Shown: in pieces, positions 3,290-10,695 of the stretch
Layout of the letters: each line of letters starts with the position of its first letter
How positions within the stretch are numbered: the first letter of the stretch is position 1
Source of the DNA: Rhizobium sp.
GTDB lineage: Bacteria; Pseudomonadota; Gammaproteobacteria; Burkholderiales; Thiobacillaceae
Direction of reading: 5' to 3'
Assembly: GCA_019459285.1 (NCBI GenBank)
Contig: JAIBEL010000021.1
Span: forward strand, 1 to 64,000
DNA length: 64,000 nucleotides
Made by a program: the position numbers and the translations under genes
Notes under the pieces: generated by a model
Databases searched by the model: none
Seen by the model: only the letters and a program-made list of their open reading frames with translations
What the model was told of the DNA's origin: nothing

Positions 3290-4291
3290 ATGAAGATTGA
3301 AGACAAGAAACGCGTGCTGCGCGAAATGGTGTTGCACCGCCGTTTTGAAGAGCGCTGCTATCAGGCCTATATCGAACGCAAGATCGGCGGCTTCCTCCAC
3401 CTCTACCCTGGCCAGGAAGCCTGCTGCAACGGCGTGATGGAGGCCGCACGCCCCGGCCATGACTATGTCATCACCGGCTACCGCGACCACGTCCACGCGA
3501 TCAAGTGCGGGGCCGATCCGAAGGCCGTGATGGCCGAACTGTATGGCAAGGAAACCGGCTCCTCCAAGGGACGCGGCGGTTCGATGCACATCTTCGACGG
3601 CGACAAGCGCTTCATGGGCGGCTACGCGCTGGTCGGCGGCCCCTTTCCGCTCGCGGCCGGCATCGCCAAGGCGATCCAGCTCAAGGGGGGCGACGAGATC
3701 GCCATCTGCTTCCTCGGCGACGCCGCCAACAACCAGGGCGTGTTCCACGAGACGCTGAACATGGCGGCGCTGTGGAAGCTGCCGGTGCTGTTCGTCTGCG
3801 AAAACAACCTCTACGGCATCGGCACCTCGATCGAACGCTCCACCGCCGTGGTGCACCAGCACAAGCGCGTCGCCGCCTACAATATCCCGGCCGACGAATG
3901 CGATGGCCAGGATATCGAAATCGTTTACGAAGCCGCACGCAAGGCGGTCGACCATGTGCGCTCGGGCAACGGCCCCTACTTCCTCGAACTGATGACCTAC
4001 CGCTATCGCGGCCATTCGATGTCCGATTCGCGCGGCTACCGCTCGCGCGAAGAGGAAGAACTGTGGAAGCAGCGCGACCCCATCTTCATCCTGCGCGACC
4101 GCCTGATCAAGGACGGTGCCATGACCATGGCCGACTTCGAGGCGCTGGAAAAGGAAACCGACGCCTACATCGAGAACGAAGTGATCAAGTTCGCCGAGGA
4201 ATCGCCCGAACCGCGCGTCGAGGATCTCGAGAAATACGTTTTTGCCGATCGCGCAACCCAGCTCCCGTGGCTCACGGGCAAGGCCGCTTAA
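3290..4291 (+). CDS. pdhA: Pyruvate dehydrogenase E1 component, alpha subunit
   Basis: Thiamine-diphosphate subunit of an alpha2beta2-type E1 that decarboxylates a 2-oxoacid (most likely pyruvate) and passes the acyl group to lipoyl-E2. The ThDP/Mg motif runs from GDAANNQG (residues 143-150) to the ENN at about 176-178. The plastid/mitochondrial-style features GYRDHVHA, GRGGSMH and YRYRGHSMSD are all present. Its 333 aa is normal for the family. An AAGG ribosome-binding site precedes the ATG. It is followed 20 bp later by pdhB. Most betaproteobacteria I know use a homodimeric AceE-type E1, so this form is noteworthy. A branched-chain or acetoin substrate is possible, but E1 alpha and the lipoyl motifs look PDH-like. 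Confidence 0.93.
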   Translation: MKIEDKKRVLREMVLHRRFEERCYQAYIERKIGGFLHLYPGQEACCNGVMEAARPGHDYVITGYRDHVHAIKCGADPKAVMAELYGKETGSSKGRGGSMHIFDGDKRFMGGYALVGGPFPLAAGIAKAIQLKGGDEIAICFLGDAANNQGVFHETLNMAALWKLPVLFVCENNLYGIGTSIERSTAVVHQHKRVAAYNIPADECDGQDIEIVYEAARKAVDHVRSGNGPYFLELMTYRYRGHSMSDSRGYRSREEEELWKQRDPIFILRDRLIKDGAMTMADFEALEKETDAYIENEVIKFAEESPEPRVEDLEKYVFADRATQLPWLTGKAA

Positions 4292-4311: not shown

Positions 4312-5295
4312 ATGGCAAACATCATGTACTGGGAAGCGATCCAGCGCGCCCACGACGAAGAAATGGCGCGCGACCCGCTCGTCATCTGCATGGGTGAGGA
4401 CATCGGCGTGGCCGGCGGCACCTACAAGGCCACCAAGGGCCTGTACGAAAAATACGGGCCGCTGCGCGTGATGGACACCCCCATCTCCGAAGGCGGCTTC
4501 ACCGGTCTCGGCATCGGCGCTTCCTTCCTCGGCGTGCGTCCCGTCATCGAAATCATGTCGGTCAACTTCGCCTGGCTGGCGATGGACCAGATGTTCAACT
4601 CCGCCGCCAAGGTGCGTTACATGTCGGGCGGCCAGCTGACCGCGCCGTGCGTGTTCCGCTCCGCCGGCGGCGCCGCGCACCAGCTCGGCGCCCAGCATTC
4701 GGCGCGCATGGAGAAGGTGTTCATGGGGATCGCCGGCCTGCGCGTGGTCACCCCCTCGAATCCCAAGCAGGCCTACGGTCTGCTGAAGTCGGCGATCCGC
4801 TGCGACGATCCGGTGTTCATCAACGAACACGAACTGATGTACAACATGAAGGGCGAAGTGCCGGACGGCGAATATTTCCATCCGCTGGAAGGCTCCGAAA
4901 TCGCCCGCTCGGGCACCGACGTGACGCTGTTCGGCTATAACATTTCGGTACACTGGTGCCTCAAGGCGGCCGAGATCCTCGACAAGCAGTACGGCATCTC
5001 GGCCGAGGTCGTCGACCTCTATTCGTTGTCGCCGCTGGACCGGGCAGGCATCAAGGCATCGGTCAGCAAGACCCACCGCGCCGTCATCGCCGAAGAAGAC
5101 GAAGCGCCGGTCGGCGTCGGCTCCGAAGTCATCGCCATCATCAACGAAGAATGCTTCTTCGAACTGGATGCCGCACCGGTGCGCGTGCATTCGGCACTGG
5201 TACCGCAGCCTTACAACCACACGCTGGAAAAAGCGGCGATCCCGGATCATGAAGACGTGGTCAAGGCGGTACTGAAGCTCTTTGGCAAGGCGTGA
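4312..5295 (+). CDS. pdhB: Pyruvate dehydrogenase E1 component, beta subunit
   Basis: Partner of pdhA; completes the ThDP active site across the alpha/beta interface. The typical sequence MGEDIGVAGG near residue 27, the DTPISEGGFTGLGIGAS stretch around residues 60-75, the HSARMEKVF segment and the C-terminal transketolase-like domain (SAEVVDLYSLSPLD) are visible. At 327 aa it matches stand-alone E1 beta subunits. It is translated 20 bp after pdhA and followed by a 72-bp spacer before the E2-E3 gene. That spacer is rich in GTGAG/GTAAG words resembling those found between ccoP and ccoG. Confidence 0.93.
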   Translation: MANIMYWEAIQRAHDEEMARDPLVICMGEDIGVAGGTYKATKGLYEKYGPLRVMDTPISEGGFTGLGIGASFLGVRPVIEIMSVNFAWLAMDQMFNSAAKVRYMSGGQLTAPCVFRSAGGAAHQLGAQHSARMEKVFMGIAGLRVVTPSNPKQAYGLLKSAIRCDDPVFINEHELMYNMKGEVPDGEYFHPLEGSEIARSGTDVTLFGYNISVHWCLKAAEILDKQYGISAEVVDLYSLSPLDRAGIKASVSKTHRAVIAEEDEAPVGVGSEVIAIINEECFFELDAAPVRVHSALVPQPYNHTLEKAAIPDHEDVVKAVLKLFGKA

Positions 5296-5367: not shown

Positions 5368-8300
5368 ATGTCCCAACATTACGCCATCACGATGCCGCAG
5401 CTCTCGGACACCATGACCGAGGGCGTGGTCGTCACCTGGGAAAAGCAGCCGGGCGACAAGGTCGAGCGCGGCGACATCGTCGCTACGGTCGAGACCGACA
5501 AGGCCATCATGGACGTCGAGGTGTTCAAGGCCGGCTACCTGGCCGGCCCGCTGGCCGACGTCGGCACGACCATCGCCGTCGGCGCCGCGCTCGGCTACAT
5601 CACCGACACCGCGGGCGATGTGGCGATCGCCGCCGGCGAAGTGGTGGAAGAAAAGGCTCAGACCGAGATGATCCCGCACCATGCCGGCACGCCGATCGTG
5701 ATGCCGCAACTGTCGGACACCATGACCGAGGGCGTGGTCGTCACCTGGGAAAAACAGCCGGGCGACGTCATCAAGCGCGGCGACATCGTCGCCACGGTCG
5801 AGACCGACAAGGCCATCATGGACGTCGAGGTATTCCAGGAAGGCTTCCTCTCCGGCCCGATCGCCGACGTCGGCAGCGTGGTCGAGGTCGGCCATCCGAT
5901 GGCCTTTATCGTCGACGACGCCGCCAAGGCCAACGATACCGGCGTCACCATCAGCGCCGACCACAAGGTCCAGAACACCCACAAGGTGGCACCGCCGTCC
6001 GCCGACAAACCGGCGCACATTCCCACGCCCAAGGCCGCGCCCGCGCATATCTCCGCGGCTGGCAACGTGCCGCCGGTGGCGCGCCCGCAGGGCCGCCAGG
6101 CCAGTCCCTATGCGCGCAAGGTGGCGGCGCAGCTGGGGGTGAACCTGACCGGCCTCGCCGGTACCGGTCCGTCCGGCGTGATCGTCGCCGCCGACGTGGC
6201 GCGCGCGCGTCCCTCGATGCAGGAAGTCGCCCACTCGCTGCCGCAGGTCGACGTCCCCGGCCAGGGCCGCGCGATGACCTCGATGGAAAAGGCGGTCTCC
6301 CACGCGATGACCGCCTCGCTCACGCTGCCAACCTTCAACGTCACGGTGAACATCGACACGTCCAAACTCACCGCCGCTGCCAAGGCGAACAAGGTCTCGG
6401 TGACGGTCGCGATCGCCAAGGCCTGTTCGGTGGCGATGGCGAAGTTCCCGCGCATGAACTGGGCCTACCAGCCGGTCGACAAGCTGGTCGAACGCAGCAA
6501 CCACGACTTCGGCGTGGCAGTCATGTCGAACGACGGCGGCCTGGTGGTGCCAATCCTGCACGGCATCGAGAAGAAGCCGCTGGAAGCGCTGCAGAGCGAC
6601 TGGACCGGCCTGGTCGAACGCGCGCGGGTCAGGAAACTGGCCCCGGCCGAGTATTCCAACCCCACCTTCACCATCTCCAACATGGGCATGCTGGGCGTGT
6701 CGCACTTCACCGCGATCCCCACCCCCGGCATCTCCGCGATCCTGGCGATCGCCGCCAACGGCCCGCAGGGCACGCCGTTCACCATCACCGGCGACCACCG
6801 TGTGCTGAACGGCGCCGACGTGGCGCTGTATCTTGCGACCCTGAAGCAGACCATCGAGGCACCCGATGCATGGATGGCGGGCGGCGCCGTTGCGGCTGAA
6901 GCCGTCACCGGCACGGCCGCAACCGTCAGAGCACCGGTATCGCCCATCCCTGAGGGTAATTGGGACTTCCCGGTCGTCGTCGTCGGCGGCGGCCCCGGCG
7001 GCGAGGACTGCGCGCGCGATCTGGCCGACCACGGCGTCAAGGTCATGATGGTCAACAACGAGCCCTTCCCCGGCGGCGAATGCCTGTGGCGCGGCTGCAT
7101 CCCATCCAAGGCCTGGCGCGCCGCGGCGGACGTCATCCGCAACCGCGCGCACGACGCCGACATGGGTGTGGACGGCACGAATACCCCGAAATTGAACTGG
7201 GAGCAGGTCGAGAAGCACCGCCGCTGGGTGCAGTCGAGCCGCGGCGAAATGGCGCTGAAAGCCGACAAGGGCATGAAGATCGACGTACGCGAAGGCTACG
7301 GCGAATTCGTCGATGCCCACACGCTGAAGATCACCCCGGTCGAGGGCGAGCCCTACACCGTCAGCTTCGGCGCAGCCGTCATCGCCACCGGCGCCCCCGC
7401 CTTCGTGCCGCCGATCCCTGGCGCGCGCGAGAACCTGGCAACCGGCGGCGTCGTCACCTCAGACACCATCTGGAACCTCGCCACGCCGCCGAAGAAACTC
7501 GGCATCGTCGGCGGCGGCGTGATCGGCGTGGAAATGGCGCAGATCTTCCGCGACTTCGGCACCGAGGTGCTGATGCTGGAGCGCCACGACCGCATCCTCG
7601 CCGAAACCGAGGAGGAAATTGCCAAGCAACTGATCGCCTTGCTGGAAAAGGAAGTCACCGTACTCACCAGCGCCAGCATCAACGAAGTCAGCGGCACCCC
7701 GGGCGCGATGAAGCTGCGCTACGCCAACAAGGAAGGCGTCGAGTCGGTGTTCGATTGCGACGTCGTGCTGATGGCCACTGGCAAGCGCCCCGACACCAGC
7801 AAGCTGAATCTGGACAAAATCGGCGTCGAAGTCGACGGCGCAGCGATCAAGGTCAACGCCCGCTGCCAGACCAGTGCGCCGCACATCTATGCGGTGGGCG
7901 ACGTGATCGGCGGCTACATGCTCGCCCACACCGCCGCCACCCAGGGCCGCGTCGCTGCCAACAACCTGCTCGGTCACGCCAGCGAATACGACCAGGACAA
8001 GGACTGCGGCGTCACCTTCTCGCGCCCGCAGGCCGGTTTCGTCGGCCTGTCCGTCGCGCAGGCCAAGGCCAAGGGCATCGACGCGGTGGAAGCCAAGATG
8101 CCGATGAGCATCGACGCCAAGGCGATGATCACCGGCGAGACCGAGGGCATGATCAAGCTGGTGGCCGACAAGGCCACCGGCCGCATCATCGGCGTGCATT
8201 ATCTGGCCGACCACACCGACACCCTGATCGGCATTGGCGTGATGATGGTGGCGGGCGAGATGACGCTGACCCAGGTGGCCAAGGCGATCTTCCCGCACCC

Positions 8301-8373
8301 GACGCAGACCGAGCTGTTCGGCGAGCTGGCGCGGCGGCTGTTGAACCGCCTGCGGCGGACGGCGAAGAAGTAA
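5368..8373 (+). CDS. Fused E2-E3: dihydrolipoyl acyltransferase plus dihydrolipoyl dehydrogenase
   Basis: One 1001-residue frame carries both remaining catalytic parts of the complex. In order: lipoyl domain 1 (lipoyl Lys45 in ETDKAIMDV), lipoyl domain 2 (Lys148 in the same motif), a Pro/Ala-rich linker, a peripheral-subunit-binding domain (about 243-280), the acyltransferase core (about 300-497, catalytic His477 in DHRVLNGAD), a 30-residue Ala/Thr/Pro linker, then a complete flavoprotein E3 from about 532. E3 shows the FAD motif VVVGGGPGGEDCA, redox cysteines Cys572 and Cys577, an NAD-binding GIVGGGVIGVE and the C-terminal HPTQTE with catalytic His977. No frameshift or internal stop separates the halves. 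It is the third gene of the pdh operon and ends before a strong terminator. Confidence 0.93.
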   Translation: MSQHYAITMPQLSDTMTEGVVVTWEKQPGDKVERGDIVATVETDKAIMDVEVFKAGYLAGPLADVGTTIAVGAALGYITDTAGDVAIAAGEVVEEKAQTEMIPHHAGTPIVMPQLSDTMTEGVVVTWEKQPGDVIKRGDIVATVETDKAIMDVEVFQEGFLSGPIADVGSVVEVGHPMAFIVDDAAKANDTGVTISADHKVQNTHKVAPPSADKPAHIPTPKAAPAHISAAGNVPPVARPQGRQASPYARKVAAQLGVNLTGLAGTGPSGVIVAADVARARPSMQEVAHSLPQVDVPGQGRAMTSMEKAVSHAMTASLTLPTFNVTVNIDTSKLTAAAKANKVSVTVAIAKACSVAMAKFPRMNWAYQPVDKLVERSNHDFGVAVMSNDGGLVVPILHGIEKKPLEALQSDWTGLVERARVRKLAPAEYSNPTFTISNMGMLGVSHFTAIPTPGISAILAIAANGPQGTPFTITGDHRVLNGADVALYLATLKQTIEAPDAWMAGGAVAAEAVTGTAATVRAPVSPIPEGNWDFPVVVVGGGPGGEDCARDLADHGVKVMMVNNEPFPGGECLWRGCIPSKAWRAAADVIRNRAHDADMGVDGTNTPKLNWEQVEKHRRWVQSSRGEMALKADKGMKIDVREGYGEFVDAHTLKITPVEGEPYTVSFGAAVIATGAPAFVPPIPGARENLATGGVVTSDTIWNLATPPKKLGIVGGGVIGVEMAQIFRDFGTEVLMLERHDRILAETEEEIAKQLIALLEKEVTVLTSASINEVSGTPGAMKLRYANKEGVESVFDCDVVLMATGKRPDTSKLNLDKIGVEVDGAAIKVNARCQTSAPHIYAVGDVIGGYMLAHTAATQGRVAANNLLGHASEYDQDKDCGVTFSRPQAGFVGLSVAQAKAKGIDAVEAKMPMSIDAKAMITGETEGMIKLVADKATGRIIGVHYLADHTDTLIGIGVMMVAGEMTLTQVAKAIFPHPTQTELFGELARRLLNRLRRTAKK

Positions 8374-8502: not shown

Positions 8503-9093
8503 CTAACGCAGGCGAGGATGCTTATCTGCCGGTTTGAAGTGATCTGGCCGGTGATCGGGAATAAACCCGTTGCGATTCGGCATGGCGACTTTTGACAGAC
8601 TTTTCGCAGTGATTGGCTCATCGCCGTTAAGAATCTTGGCTTCAGACAGGATATACCCGGTTACCGAATAGACCTCGTCATTCGTCAATGACCCTGGCGT
8701 ATAGAACGGCATGGCCCGCTTGATGTAATCGAACAATGTCGTTGCATAGGGCCAATAGCTTTCAACCGTCTTGACCGGCGCTTTCTTGGGATCATTGTTC
8801 ACCAGCGTTCCCCTTCCGCCGATCAGACGATCCCCTATGTCACCCTCCAACTTTTGTCCATGGCAGGATGCACACTTTTCGTCGTAAACCTGTTTGCCCT
8901 TTGAAATCGTGCCGCTGCCTGCCGGCAGATCCCGTCCATCCGGCAAGGAAGAGACGAAATCCTGCAGGTCGTTTGCAGATGCCGGCTCTCCAAATCCATA
9001 CCGCGTCGGGTCTGCGCTCACGGCATACGTATTCAATGCGAATAAAGCGCCGCACGCCGTTACCTGTAAAAAGAGTTTAGTAGTAGTGAACAT
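8503..9093 (-). CDS. Periplasmic monohaem cytochrome c, like the N-terminal half of SoxD
   Basis: Predicted electron acceptor for the SoxC protein encoded just upstream. A Sec-type signal peptide covers about residues 1-27 (cleavage near AVSA). One haem-binding CASCH is at 74-78, and a likely Met ligand is in RAMPF. The surrounding words YGFGEP, LPAGSGT, VKTVESYWPYATT, FDYIKRAMPF and NDEVYSVTGYIL are those I recall from the first haem domain of SoxD. SoxD proteins I know are dihaem and nearly twice as long; this frame stops at 196 aa with no second CxxCH. Its start overlaps the soxC stop by 17 bp, with a GGGGAG ribosome-binding site, indicating translational coupling. SorB-like sulfite dehydrogenase cytochrome is the alternative. 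Confidence 0.82.
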   Translation of the reverse strand: MFTTTKLFLQVTACGALFALNTYAVSADPTRYGFGEPASANDLQDFVSSLPDGRDLPAGSGTISKGKQVYDEKCASCHGQKLEGDIGDRLIGGRGTLVNNDPKKAPVKTVESYWPYATTLFDYIKRAMPFYTPGSLTNDEVYSVTGYILSEAKILNGDEPITAKSLSKVAMPNRNGFIPDHRPDHFKPADKHPRLR

Positions 9094-10543
9094 TGCTTAC
9101 TCTCCCCTCGGTATCAACTTTCCAGCTTTGGATTGCATTGAGATGGTAGATGGAACCAATGGGCCCGTTTAAACCCCGAACCTCAATAAGTTGCCCCAGC
9201 GTGGGTTGGACGTACCCTGTTTCATCCACGCAACGACTTTGCAAAATCGCTTCTTTACCGTCCCATACCCAGGGAAAACGAAAGCGTGTCTGACAAATAG
9301 GCAGGATCGGGCCCTGCAAGCCCGCAGGCTTCCAGGTTCTCCCCCCGTCCGTCGATACATCGACACGTTTTATGCGTCCGCGTCCGGACCACGCTAAGCC
9401 GGTAATTTCATAAAAACCGGGGCCTGAAAGCGTCATTTCTCCGGATGGCCGCGTAATGACAGACTTGGCATCCATGACCAAGGAAAATTGCACCGCCTTG
9501 CCGCTGGGTAGCAGATCGGTATATTTCGAGGTTTCTTCGCGCGTCATGAACGGCTTGTCAGATAACTCGATTCGGCGAACCCACTTGATATGCGTATTGC
9601 CCTCGTATCCTGGTGCGATCAGGCGCAACGGGTAGCCTTGTTCGGGACGAATCGCCTCCCCATTCTGTCCGTAGGCAAGGAAACAATCTTTCATTGCCTT
9701 ATCGATCGGGATGCTTCGCGTCATGACCGAAGAGTCGCCCCCCTCTACGAGCAACCACTTGGCACCCGATTTGACACCGACTTCGTTCAGGATTGTCGAC
9801 AGGGGAACCCCTGTCCATTCGGAAGTCGAGACGAGACCGTGCGTGCCCTGTACGGTTTTCAACGTAGGCTTCGACCACTCCGTGAGGCCATTGCCAGAAC
9901 ATTCAATGAAAAGAATTCGAGATATCGACGGGAAGCGCTTCACGTCCAGCATCGAGAATTTCTTCGGCTGCTTCACCATCCCGTGCACGAACACCTTATG
10001 CGTGGCTGGATCAATTGTGGCGATGCCCCCATGATCCCGTTCGAAATGCAGTCCTGACGGAGTAATGATGCCTACGCCATGCTCCAGTGGCGTCATCGAC
10101 CAGGATGAGAGGGGTGTCTTGGTACCAAAGCGCCAACGAACCTCGGTTTCGAACTGGGAGCGCGTCCCGTAGCCCCCGTCTTCGCCAATAGCGGTGCCTG
10201 GAATTTTCGTGGCATCTTCCGGGACCGACCGCCATACCGCCCCCGGAGGGGCTTTGCCGTCCGGGGACGCAGCGGTTTGCGCGATGGCTCTTCCGGCCAC
10301 GCTCGAACTGGCGAGCACCGCAAAGGAAGCCAGGAAATGCCGTCGATTGTGTGGTCGCTGAAGAGGATCAACGCCTTTGGCAGGCTCACCTTTTACAGGC
10401 TTTTCCGGCTCAATGTGATTCTGACTGAAATATGCTGAATTGGCGTTTTTTCTGGCTTTGGCGAGAAATGCTTCTTCGGCCTCAACCAAAGACGCTATTT
10501 TCAATTGGTTCTTGGCGTCGCTATTTGGATCAAGAATGGACAT
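9077..10543 (-). CDS. soxC: SoxC-type molybdopterin sulfane dehydrogenase
   Basis: Molybdenum-cofactor protein of the sulfite-oxidase fold. SoxC with SoxD oxidises the sulfane sulfur carried on SoxY in the periplasm. The Moco-binding cysteine is in FIECSGNG at about residue 215; other family words are HFERDHGG, VEGGDSSVMTRSIP, RPEQGYPLRL, EGNTHIKWVRR and the C-terminal dimerisation domain (GLAWSGRGRIKRVDVSTDGG). A twin-arginine signal, NRRHFLAS, sits at residues 66-73, after an unusually long leader of about 65 residues. The ATG at 10543 is chosen over that at 10549 because GGAGG is 7 nt upstream of the former and only 1 nt from the latter. No soxXYZAB genes are in view. A SorA-like sulfite dehydrogenase is less likely. 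Confidence 0.87.
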   Translation of the reverse strand: MSILDPNSDAKNQLKIASLVEAEEAFLAKARKNANSAYFSQNHIEPEKPVKGEPAKGVDPLQRPHNRRHFLASFAVLASSSVAGRAIAQTAASPDGKAPPGAVWRSVPEDATKIPGTAIGEDGGYGTRSQFETEVRWRFGTKTPLSSWSMTPLEHGVGIITPSGLHFERDHGGIATIDPATHKVFVHGMVKQPKKFSMLDVKRFPSISRILFIECSGNGLTEWSKPTLKTVQGTHGLVSTSEWTGVPLSTILNEVGVKSGAKWLLVEGGDSSVMTRSIPIDKAMKDCFLAYGQNGEAIRPEQGYPLRLIAPGYEGNTHIKWVRRIELSDKPFMTREETSKYTDLLPSGKAVQFSLVMDAKSVITRPSGEMTLSGPGFYEITGLAWSGRGRIKRVDVSTDGGRTWKPAGLQGPILPICQTRFRFPWVWDGKEAILQSRCVDETGYVQPTLGQLIEVRGLNGPIGSIYHLNAIQSWKVDTEGRVSNVHYY

Positions 10544-10695
10544 CTTCATTCCTCCACTTTTATTGATTAAGCCGTTGAACTGGACAGTTTCTTTCTTCCT
10601 CGAACTGAAGTCGCAAAATCGAACGTTGCCGTGACACTATCTCCCTTCTGCAATTTCCGGGTCGTGATCCAGCATGACTGCCCCTGGCATTGAAC

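Follow-up and report, generated by a model that had tools for sequence, protein, structure and literature searches.

Organization of the locus

The window analysed here, a continuous stretch of 64,000 nucleotides from the genome of a Thiobacillus or a near relative, contains two adjacent genes for the subunits of a pyruvate dehydrogenase E1 component and, just downstream of them, a single long open reading frame in which an E2 (acyltransferase) and an E3 (dihydrolipoyl dehydrogenase) component are joined. The genes and their parts are as follows.

3290..4291, forward strand: pdhA, pyruvate dehydrogenase E1 alpha, 333 aa (TIGR03182, 414.7 bits against a cut-off of 393.85; PF00676)
4312..5295, forward strand: pdhB, E1 beta, 327 aa (NF006667, 357.4 bits against a cut-off of 321; PF02779 and PF02780)
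5368..8373, forward strand: fused E2-E3, 1001 aa (single open frame without a stop; domain content; recurrence in relatives)
5386..5598, forward strand: lipoyl domain 1, residues 7-77, with Lys45 (best PF00364 stretch; Lys45 in 108 of 114 rows, with 6 gaps)
5695..5913, forward strand: lipoyl domain 2, approximately residues 110-182 (edges approximate), with Lys148 (second PF00364 stretch; TIGR01349 over residues 110-499; alignment)
6097..6198, forward strand: peripheral subunit-binding domain, residues 244-277 (PF02817, 45.3 bits; Arg250 in 114 of 114 rows)
6271..6876, forward strand: E2 acyltransferase domain, residues 302-503, with Asp476, His477 and Asn481 (PF00198, 139.9 bits; Asn481 in 114 of 114 rows)
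6877..6966, forward strand: linker that joins E2 to E3 at the junction, residues 504-533 (distance from Trp502 to position 534; invariant residues)
6967..8346, forward strand: E3, dihydrolipoyl dehydrogenase (Lpd), residues 534-993, with Cys572, Cys577, His977 and Glu982 (TIGR01350; PF07992 and PF02852; 6uzi_D)

The first-pass annotation of this DNA, made from the letters alone, had proposed that E2 runs without a stop into E3, that every E2 chain thereby bears an E3 of its own, and that the accompanying E1 is of the alpha2beta2 type, and all three proposals were borne out. The 1001-residue frame contains all of the domains in order on one polypeptide, and its Pfam matches all exceed their cut-offs: Biotin_lipoyl (in two stretches), E3_binding (244-277) and 2-oxoacid_dh (302-503), followed on the E3 half by Pyr_redox_2 (535-860) and Pyr_redox_dim (882-987). 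The pdhA and pdhB models likewise score over their cut-offs, and the genome contains no match to AceE (TIGR00759). Of 80 named loci supplied, 63 have enough upstream sequence by a script's estimate, and 62 of these show the same arrangement, with an alpha/beta-type E1 immediately upstream of the fusion; the single exception (L121) displays a match for the beta subunit and none for the alpha subunit.

Both halves of the fused chain fall below the curated cut-offs of the NCBIfam models that nonetheless describe them best: the E2 part scores 291.2 bits against TIGR01349 (cut-off 445), and the E3 half 372.6 bits against the Lpd model TIGR01350 (cut-off 408.8). A predicted structure of the whole chain as a monomer (mean pLDDT 73.4, pTM 0.50, with the linkers and parts of E2 at low confidence), which shows neither docking nor core, was used solely for a fold match of E3, for which the best PDB entry is again an Lpd (6uzi_D, over 460 columns). 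The linker at the junction, measured from Trp502 to position 534, varies between 16 and 42 residues across 114 distinct fusion rows, and four of its residues (Ile527, Pro528, Gly530 and Asp533) are invariant in 25 aligned sequences.

On the other strand, adjoining the pyruvate dehydrogenase genes, lies soxC (9077-10549, reverse strand; TIGR04555, 559.3 bits against a cut-off of 420), beside which is found a small frame that encodes a c-type heme motif and matches no NCBIfam model (span of both 8503-10549, reverse strand); together these are perhaps a soxCD pair.

Recurrence and inheritance of the fused gene

The distribution of the fusion was determined by counting only those matches that lie in one place, in one open frame, and with at least 100 residues covered on each side of the junction. 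Within the genus Thiobacillus, the fusion is present in 31 of 36 genomes, that of the window included; three of the others contain fragments (E3-end pieces only in G016 and G027, and pieces in broken frames in G007), while in the search of these 36 genomes no fusion-type match was found in G006 and G021, which are 82% and 75% complete. Within the order, 36 of 399 genomes match at an E value of 1e-100, and 35 of them contain the fusion, the remaining one (G354) having the E3 alone. Within the class, 78 of 369 genomes match and 75 contain the fusion; the three others contain a piece with approximately 50 residues of E2 (G464), an E2 alone (G639), and halves that lie apart (G714). In the last of these, an incomplete assembly, an E3-type piece (C1:110880-111956) and an E2-type piece (C1:2253874-2255166) are found far apart and on opposite strands, reflecting either a split gene or a misassembly. 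Of 398 genomes sampled across the phylum, three match, and since all three belong to the same order, the fusion is no general feature of the phylum. The 574 plasmid records that contain relatives of E2 include none at 60% identity or more. The closest named record, in a comparison from which records of the same genome were possibly excluded, is that of Thiobacillus thioparus DSM 505, which is 97% identical and contains the fusion in one frame; this comparison places the host within Thiobacillus or beside it.

That two neighbouring genes were joined artificially, by an assembly error or a frameshift around positions 6880-6960, can be dismissed almost entirely, since many separate genome assemblies contain E2 and E3 in a single frame, comprising 35 of the 36 matching genomes of the order, 75 of the 78 of the class and the named strain DSM 505, against which stand the few assemblies (G007, G464 and G714) that carry pieces only. 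The E2-E3 fusion is a genuine variant of the pyruvate dehydrogenase complex, and a recurring one. The raw pairwise distances of its E2 and E3 halves are correlated (0.89 over 6441 pairs), a value that would fit a joint inheritance of the two.

The lone halves found in relatives bear on the history of the fusion. The lone fusion-type E3 of G354, a genome of genus g27 in the same family, is 491 residues in length (L160:4972-6444, reverse strand), displays intact redox and His-Glu motifs, and shares its contig and strand with aceE and with a 585-residue Lpd that bears a lipoyl domain. Because it is nested within the fused E3s in a tree of E3 halves (in a clade of five, with a support of 0.87), it is probably a secondary split; replacement of an old pyruvate dehydrogenase by one of the AceE type, leaving the E3 half behind, would explain its presence. 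The lone E2 of G639 has no firm placement in the corresponding tree of E2 halves. A fusion-type E2 preceded by E1 genes is found at L161:1587-2894 (reverse strand; 436 residues, with the motif DHRVING and one lipoyl domain), and the 8 kb examined there contain nothing that matches E3.

The first-pass annotation had linked the novelty of this architecture to whether it is already common and described in relatives. It is common there, at the frequencies given above for genus, order and class, but no account of an E2-E3 fusion was found, among the matches listed, in the literature searched, of which the coverage is thin for older and subscription papers. Work from the 1990s on the pyruvate dehydrogenase gene cluster of Thiobacillus ferrooxidans is said perhaps to have reported a joined E2 and E3 already; priority is therefore not claimed, and the novelty of the fusion lies in its distance from known complexes. 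The accessible parts of papers on Thiocapsa, Acidithiobacillus and Sideroxydans do not mention a fusion, and that on Thiocapsa lists an AceE-type complex.

Non-overlap with AceE and association with RuBisCO

When the same 369 genomes of the class were scored for AceE (TIGR00759, at an E value of 1e-100), 247 were found to contain AceE, 78 a match to the fusion, none both, and 44 neither. The fusion takes the place of AceE, and the non-overlap of the two is clean throughout these genomes. The alternation is visible even within the family to which the window belongs, in which five genomes of genus g27 contain AceE without the fusion, and three others (G000, G078 and G265) contain the fusion without AceE.

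The fusion also goes with RuBisCO, and is found mostly in bacteria that carry that enzyme too. Scored by PF00016 at an E value of 1e-30, a threshold that also admits RuBisCO-like proteins, RuBisCO is present in 71 of the 78 fusion genomes, in 91 of the 247 AceE genomes, and in 14 of the 44 genomes with neither. The difference between fusion and AceE genomes corresponds to a Fisher value of 2e-18, which, being uncorrected for phylogeny, makes the independent evidence look stronger than it is.

Conservation of active-site residues

Residue conservation was assessed over the 114 distinct fusion rows, in which Thiobacillus and its kin are heavily represented; two of 150 loci, L148 and L154, were not parsed by a search pattern and are absent from these rows. 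Asp476, His477, Cys572, Cys577 and Glu738 are each found in all 114 rows, Lys148 in 113 (with one gap), His977 in 107 (with six gaps and one Arg), and Glu982 in 107 (with six gaps and one exception).

Two sets of unfused E2 proteins served as controls. AceF sequences were drawn from 20 regions of well-scoring AceE genomes, of which 18 could be parsed for the E2 motif (one of those dropped being filler, and the other cut by a contig end) and 17 for the binding domain. Because AceF alone would confound the effect of fusion with that of E1 type, a second control was added of 10 unfused E2s of the alpha/beta type, hand-picked from 60 listed matches on named plasmids, nine of which lie beside annotated alpha/beta E1 genes.

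The earlier claim that the catalytic residues of both enzymes are kept holds for the six residues that it named (Lys45, Lys148, His477, Cys572, Cys577 and His977), all of which are found at the positions given, but it missed an invariant substitution in the E2 motif. The last Asp of that motif (DHRxxDG), four residues past His477, is replaced by Asn481 in every one of the 114 distinct fusions, while the same position is occupied by Asp in 28 of 28 unfused E2s (18 of 18 AceF, with DHRxIDG, and 10 of 10 plasmid E2s); on these sequence counts, Asn481 is characteristic of the fused proteins as a group. According to the available text of PMC5986005, replacement of this Asp by Ala in the E2o of Escherichia coli leaves 9.5% of complex activity, as compared to 2.1% for His375Ala, and the activity of the fused E2 is accordingly not certain.

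Other E3 proteins and lipoyl carriers in the cell

A separate lpd elsewhere in the genome, for which the first-pass annotation had advised a search, is present: two proteins with a Pyr_redox_dim domain are encoded, namely the fusion and a 471-residue Lpd that passes the TIGR01350 cut-off. Its gene lies between those of two GcvH-like lipoyl carriers (L162:3566-6882, forward strand), which NCBIfam calls GcvH, and is neighboured by ABC transporter genes of the nitrate/sulfonate type and by a gene for flavocytochrome c sulfide dehydrogenase. Related carriers, termed LbpA, take part in an Hdr-like pathway of sulfur oxidisers, where an Lpd has been proposed to reoxidise them, but the accessible part of PMC6067878 also notes that bacterial hdr-like clusters have no apparent Lpd gene. 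By eye, no lpd-like frame was seen in 16 kb around sucA-sucB. The SucB of the same genome (365 aa; L163:6761-7855, reverse strand) displays no E3-binding domain at an E value of 1, and has an Ala-Pro-rich stretch between its lipoyl and catalytic domains. Among 20 fusion genomes chosen for high completeness, six contain a stand-alone Lpd that exceeds the TIGR01350 cut-off and 14 do not; relatives with lower scores, which might take on the function of Lpd, are present in all 20.

The role of the subunit-binding domain and the identity of E3

The retention of a peripheral subunit-binding domain in a chain that already carries E3 had initially been regarded as a puzzle. The domain is indeed retained, but the puzzle largely dissolves, because the bacterial domain docks E1 as well as E3: the two bind to it in a mutually exclusive manner (PMC2880790, in its accessible part), and one such domain from Geobacillus stearothermophilus engages one alpha2beta2 E1 (PMC2663715, likewise). 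The fusion would still need the domain for the docking of E1.

Three arginines of the domain, which we take to be Arg135, Arg139 and Arg156 in Geobacillus numbering, presumably contact E3. The first corresponds to Arg250 and is found in all 114 fusions, all 17 AceF and nine of 10 plasmid E2s (with Lys in the tenth). At the place of Arg139, Arg is found in none of the 114 fusions, 17 of 17 AceF and three of 10 plasmid E2s; since only those three of the alpha/beta-type controls have it, this difference from AceF follows E1 type and not fusion. At the place of Arg156, Arg is found in none of the fusions, 17 of 17 AceF and seven of 10 plasmid E2s, and is also missing from PDB entry 1w4i; this comparison, which is partly informative only, hints at an effect of the fusion itself. 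Together, these residues weakly suggest that the binding domain now likely serves E1 alone.

The most serious alternative, which we regard as distinctly less probable although by no means negligible, is that the domain still docks E3, either in cis, from a neighbouring chain, or as the separate Lpd, such that the fusion adds to normal docking and replaces nothing. The domain scores over its Pfam cut-off with Arg250 invariant, and loss of both other arginines need not mean that E3 binding is lost, because unfused alpha/beta-type E2s vary at these places as well; in addition, a separate Lpd over the cut-off is available in the genome of the window and in six of the 20 chosen fusion genomes. Weighing against continued docking are the uniform absence of Arg from the Arg156 place in fusions, as compared to its presence in 24 of 27 controls, and the frequent lack of an evident second E3 that could be docked, given the 14 chosen genomes without a stand-alone Lpd over the cut-off.

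A reading of the E3 half as a specialised disulfide oxidoreductase rather than a lipoamide dehydrogenase, with a separate Lpd serving the complex, is considerably less likely. The score of this half below the TIGR01350 cut-off would agree with such a role, as would the 25-34% identity of unfused E3-type matches from the same order (among the matches listed), but the best NCBIfam model and the best fold match for the E3 half are both Lpd, conservation extends to its redox, NAD-side and His-Glu residues, and the same 14 genomes lack another Lpd over the cut-off (again with lower-scoring relatives in all 20). Finally, an internal start may yield a free E3, as residue 503 is Met (ATG at 6874), but Leu or Ile occupies that position in several of 25 aligned sequences.

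A proposed mechanism, and its relation to known complexes

On the basis of domain content, conservation, gene order and the non-overlap with AceE, the locus very probably encodes a variant form of the Thiobacillus pyruvate dehydrogenase complex, in which E2 and E3 form one polypeptide and the binding domain is probably used for E1; from these observations we infer the activity of the complex, the specificity of that domain and the pairing of E3. E1 (PdhA2-PdhB2) would decarboxylate pyruvate and acetylate a lipoyl domain, which would then swing to the E2 domain, where the acetyl group would be passed to CoA; the dihydrolipoyl arm would be reoxidised by the C-terminal E3 of the same or a neighbouring chain, generating NADH. 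Because the chain itself holds E3, the binding domain need not do so; it would be freed, probably to serve E1, and E1 and E3 would no longer compete for one site. E3 enzymes of this family work as dimers, and each E3 dimer would thus have to join two E2 chains.

This organization most closely resembles the pyruvate dehydrogenase complex of the G. stearothermophilus type, with which it shares a PdhA/PdhB E1, the order of the E2 domains and an E3 of the Lpd fold, and from which it differs in the covalent attachment of E3 to the C-terminus of E2 and in the E2 motif DHRxxNG. The AceE-AceF-Lpd complex that is usual in the class carries out, by homology, the same overall reaction and occupies the same place as the fusion, but differs from it in having AceE as its E1, separate E2 and E3 proteins, and the unaltered E2 motif of AceF. 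The 585-residue Lpd of G354 (L160:9112-10866), with its N-terminal lipoyl-type domain, resembles the fusion in joining E3 to a carrier domain, but has neither an acyltransferase nor a subunit-binding domain. Actinobacterial OdhA/KGD also combines two 2-oxoacid dehydrogenase components in one chain, although there E2o is fused to E1o and lipoyl groups are provided in trans, while the Thiobacillus chain fuses E2p to E3 and carries its own lipoyl domains (accessible part of PMC10415282). In the eukaryotic complex of E2p and E3-binding protein, E3 likewise reaches the core while bypassing the binding domain of E2, by way of a separate binding protein rather than a fusion (PMC2880790, as available).

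A more far-reaching proposal, which we offer as speculative and rather improbable, is that in many RuBisCO-bearing gammaproteobacteria (in the GTDB sense) the fused chain is the only true E3, that E3 dimers between E2 chains at the two-folds of the core build a fixed 1:1 shell of E2 and E3, and that 2-oxoglutarate dehydrogenase (OGDH), for which the SucB of this genome displays no E3-binding domain, and the glycine cleavage system borrow the tethered E3, producing a shared PDH-OGDH particle. Actinobacteria reach such a shared particle by a different road from the one that this proposal would assign to the fusion.

The copy number and position of E3 on the pyruvate dehydrogenase core represent an old question, in a system where, in bacteria, a single docking domain normally serves both E3 and E1. 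The fused chain fixes the ratio of E2 to E3 at 1:1, such that the effects of copy number and channelling become testable by cutting or shifting the linker. Taken with its association with RuBisCO, the non-overlap of the fusion with AceE suggests a pyruvate dehydrogenase variant that has been kept by CO2-fixing lineages, in which the complex would mainly feed biosynthesis.
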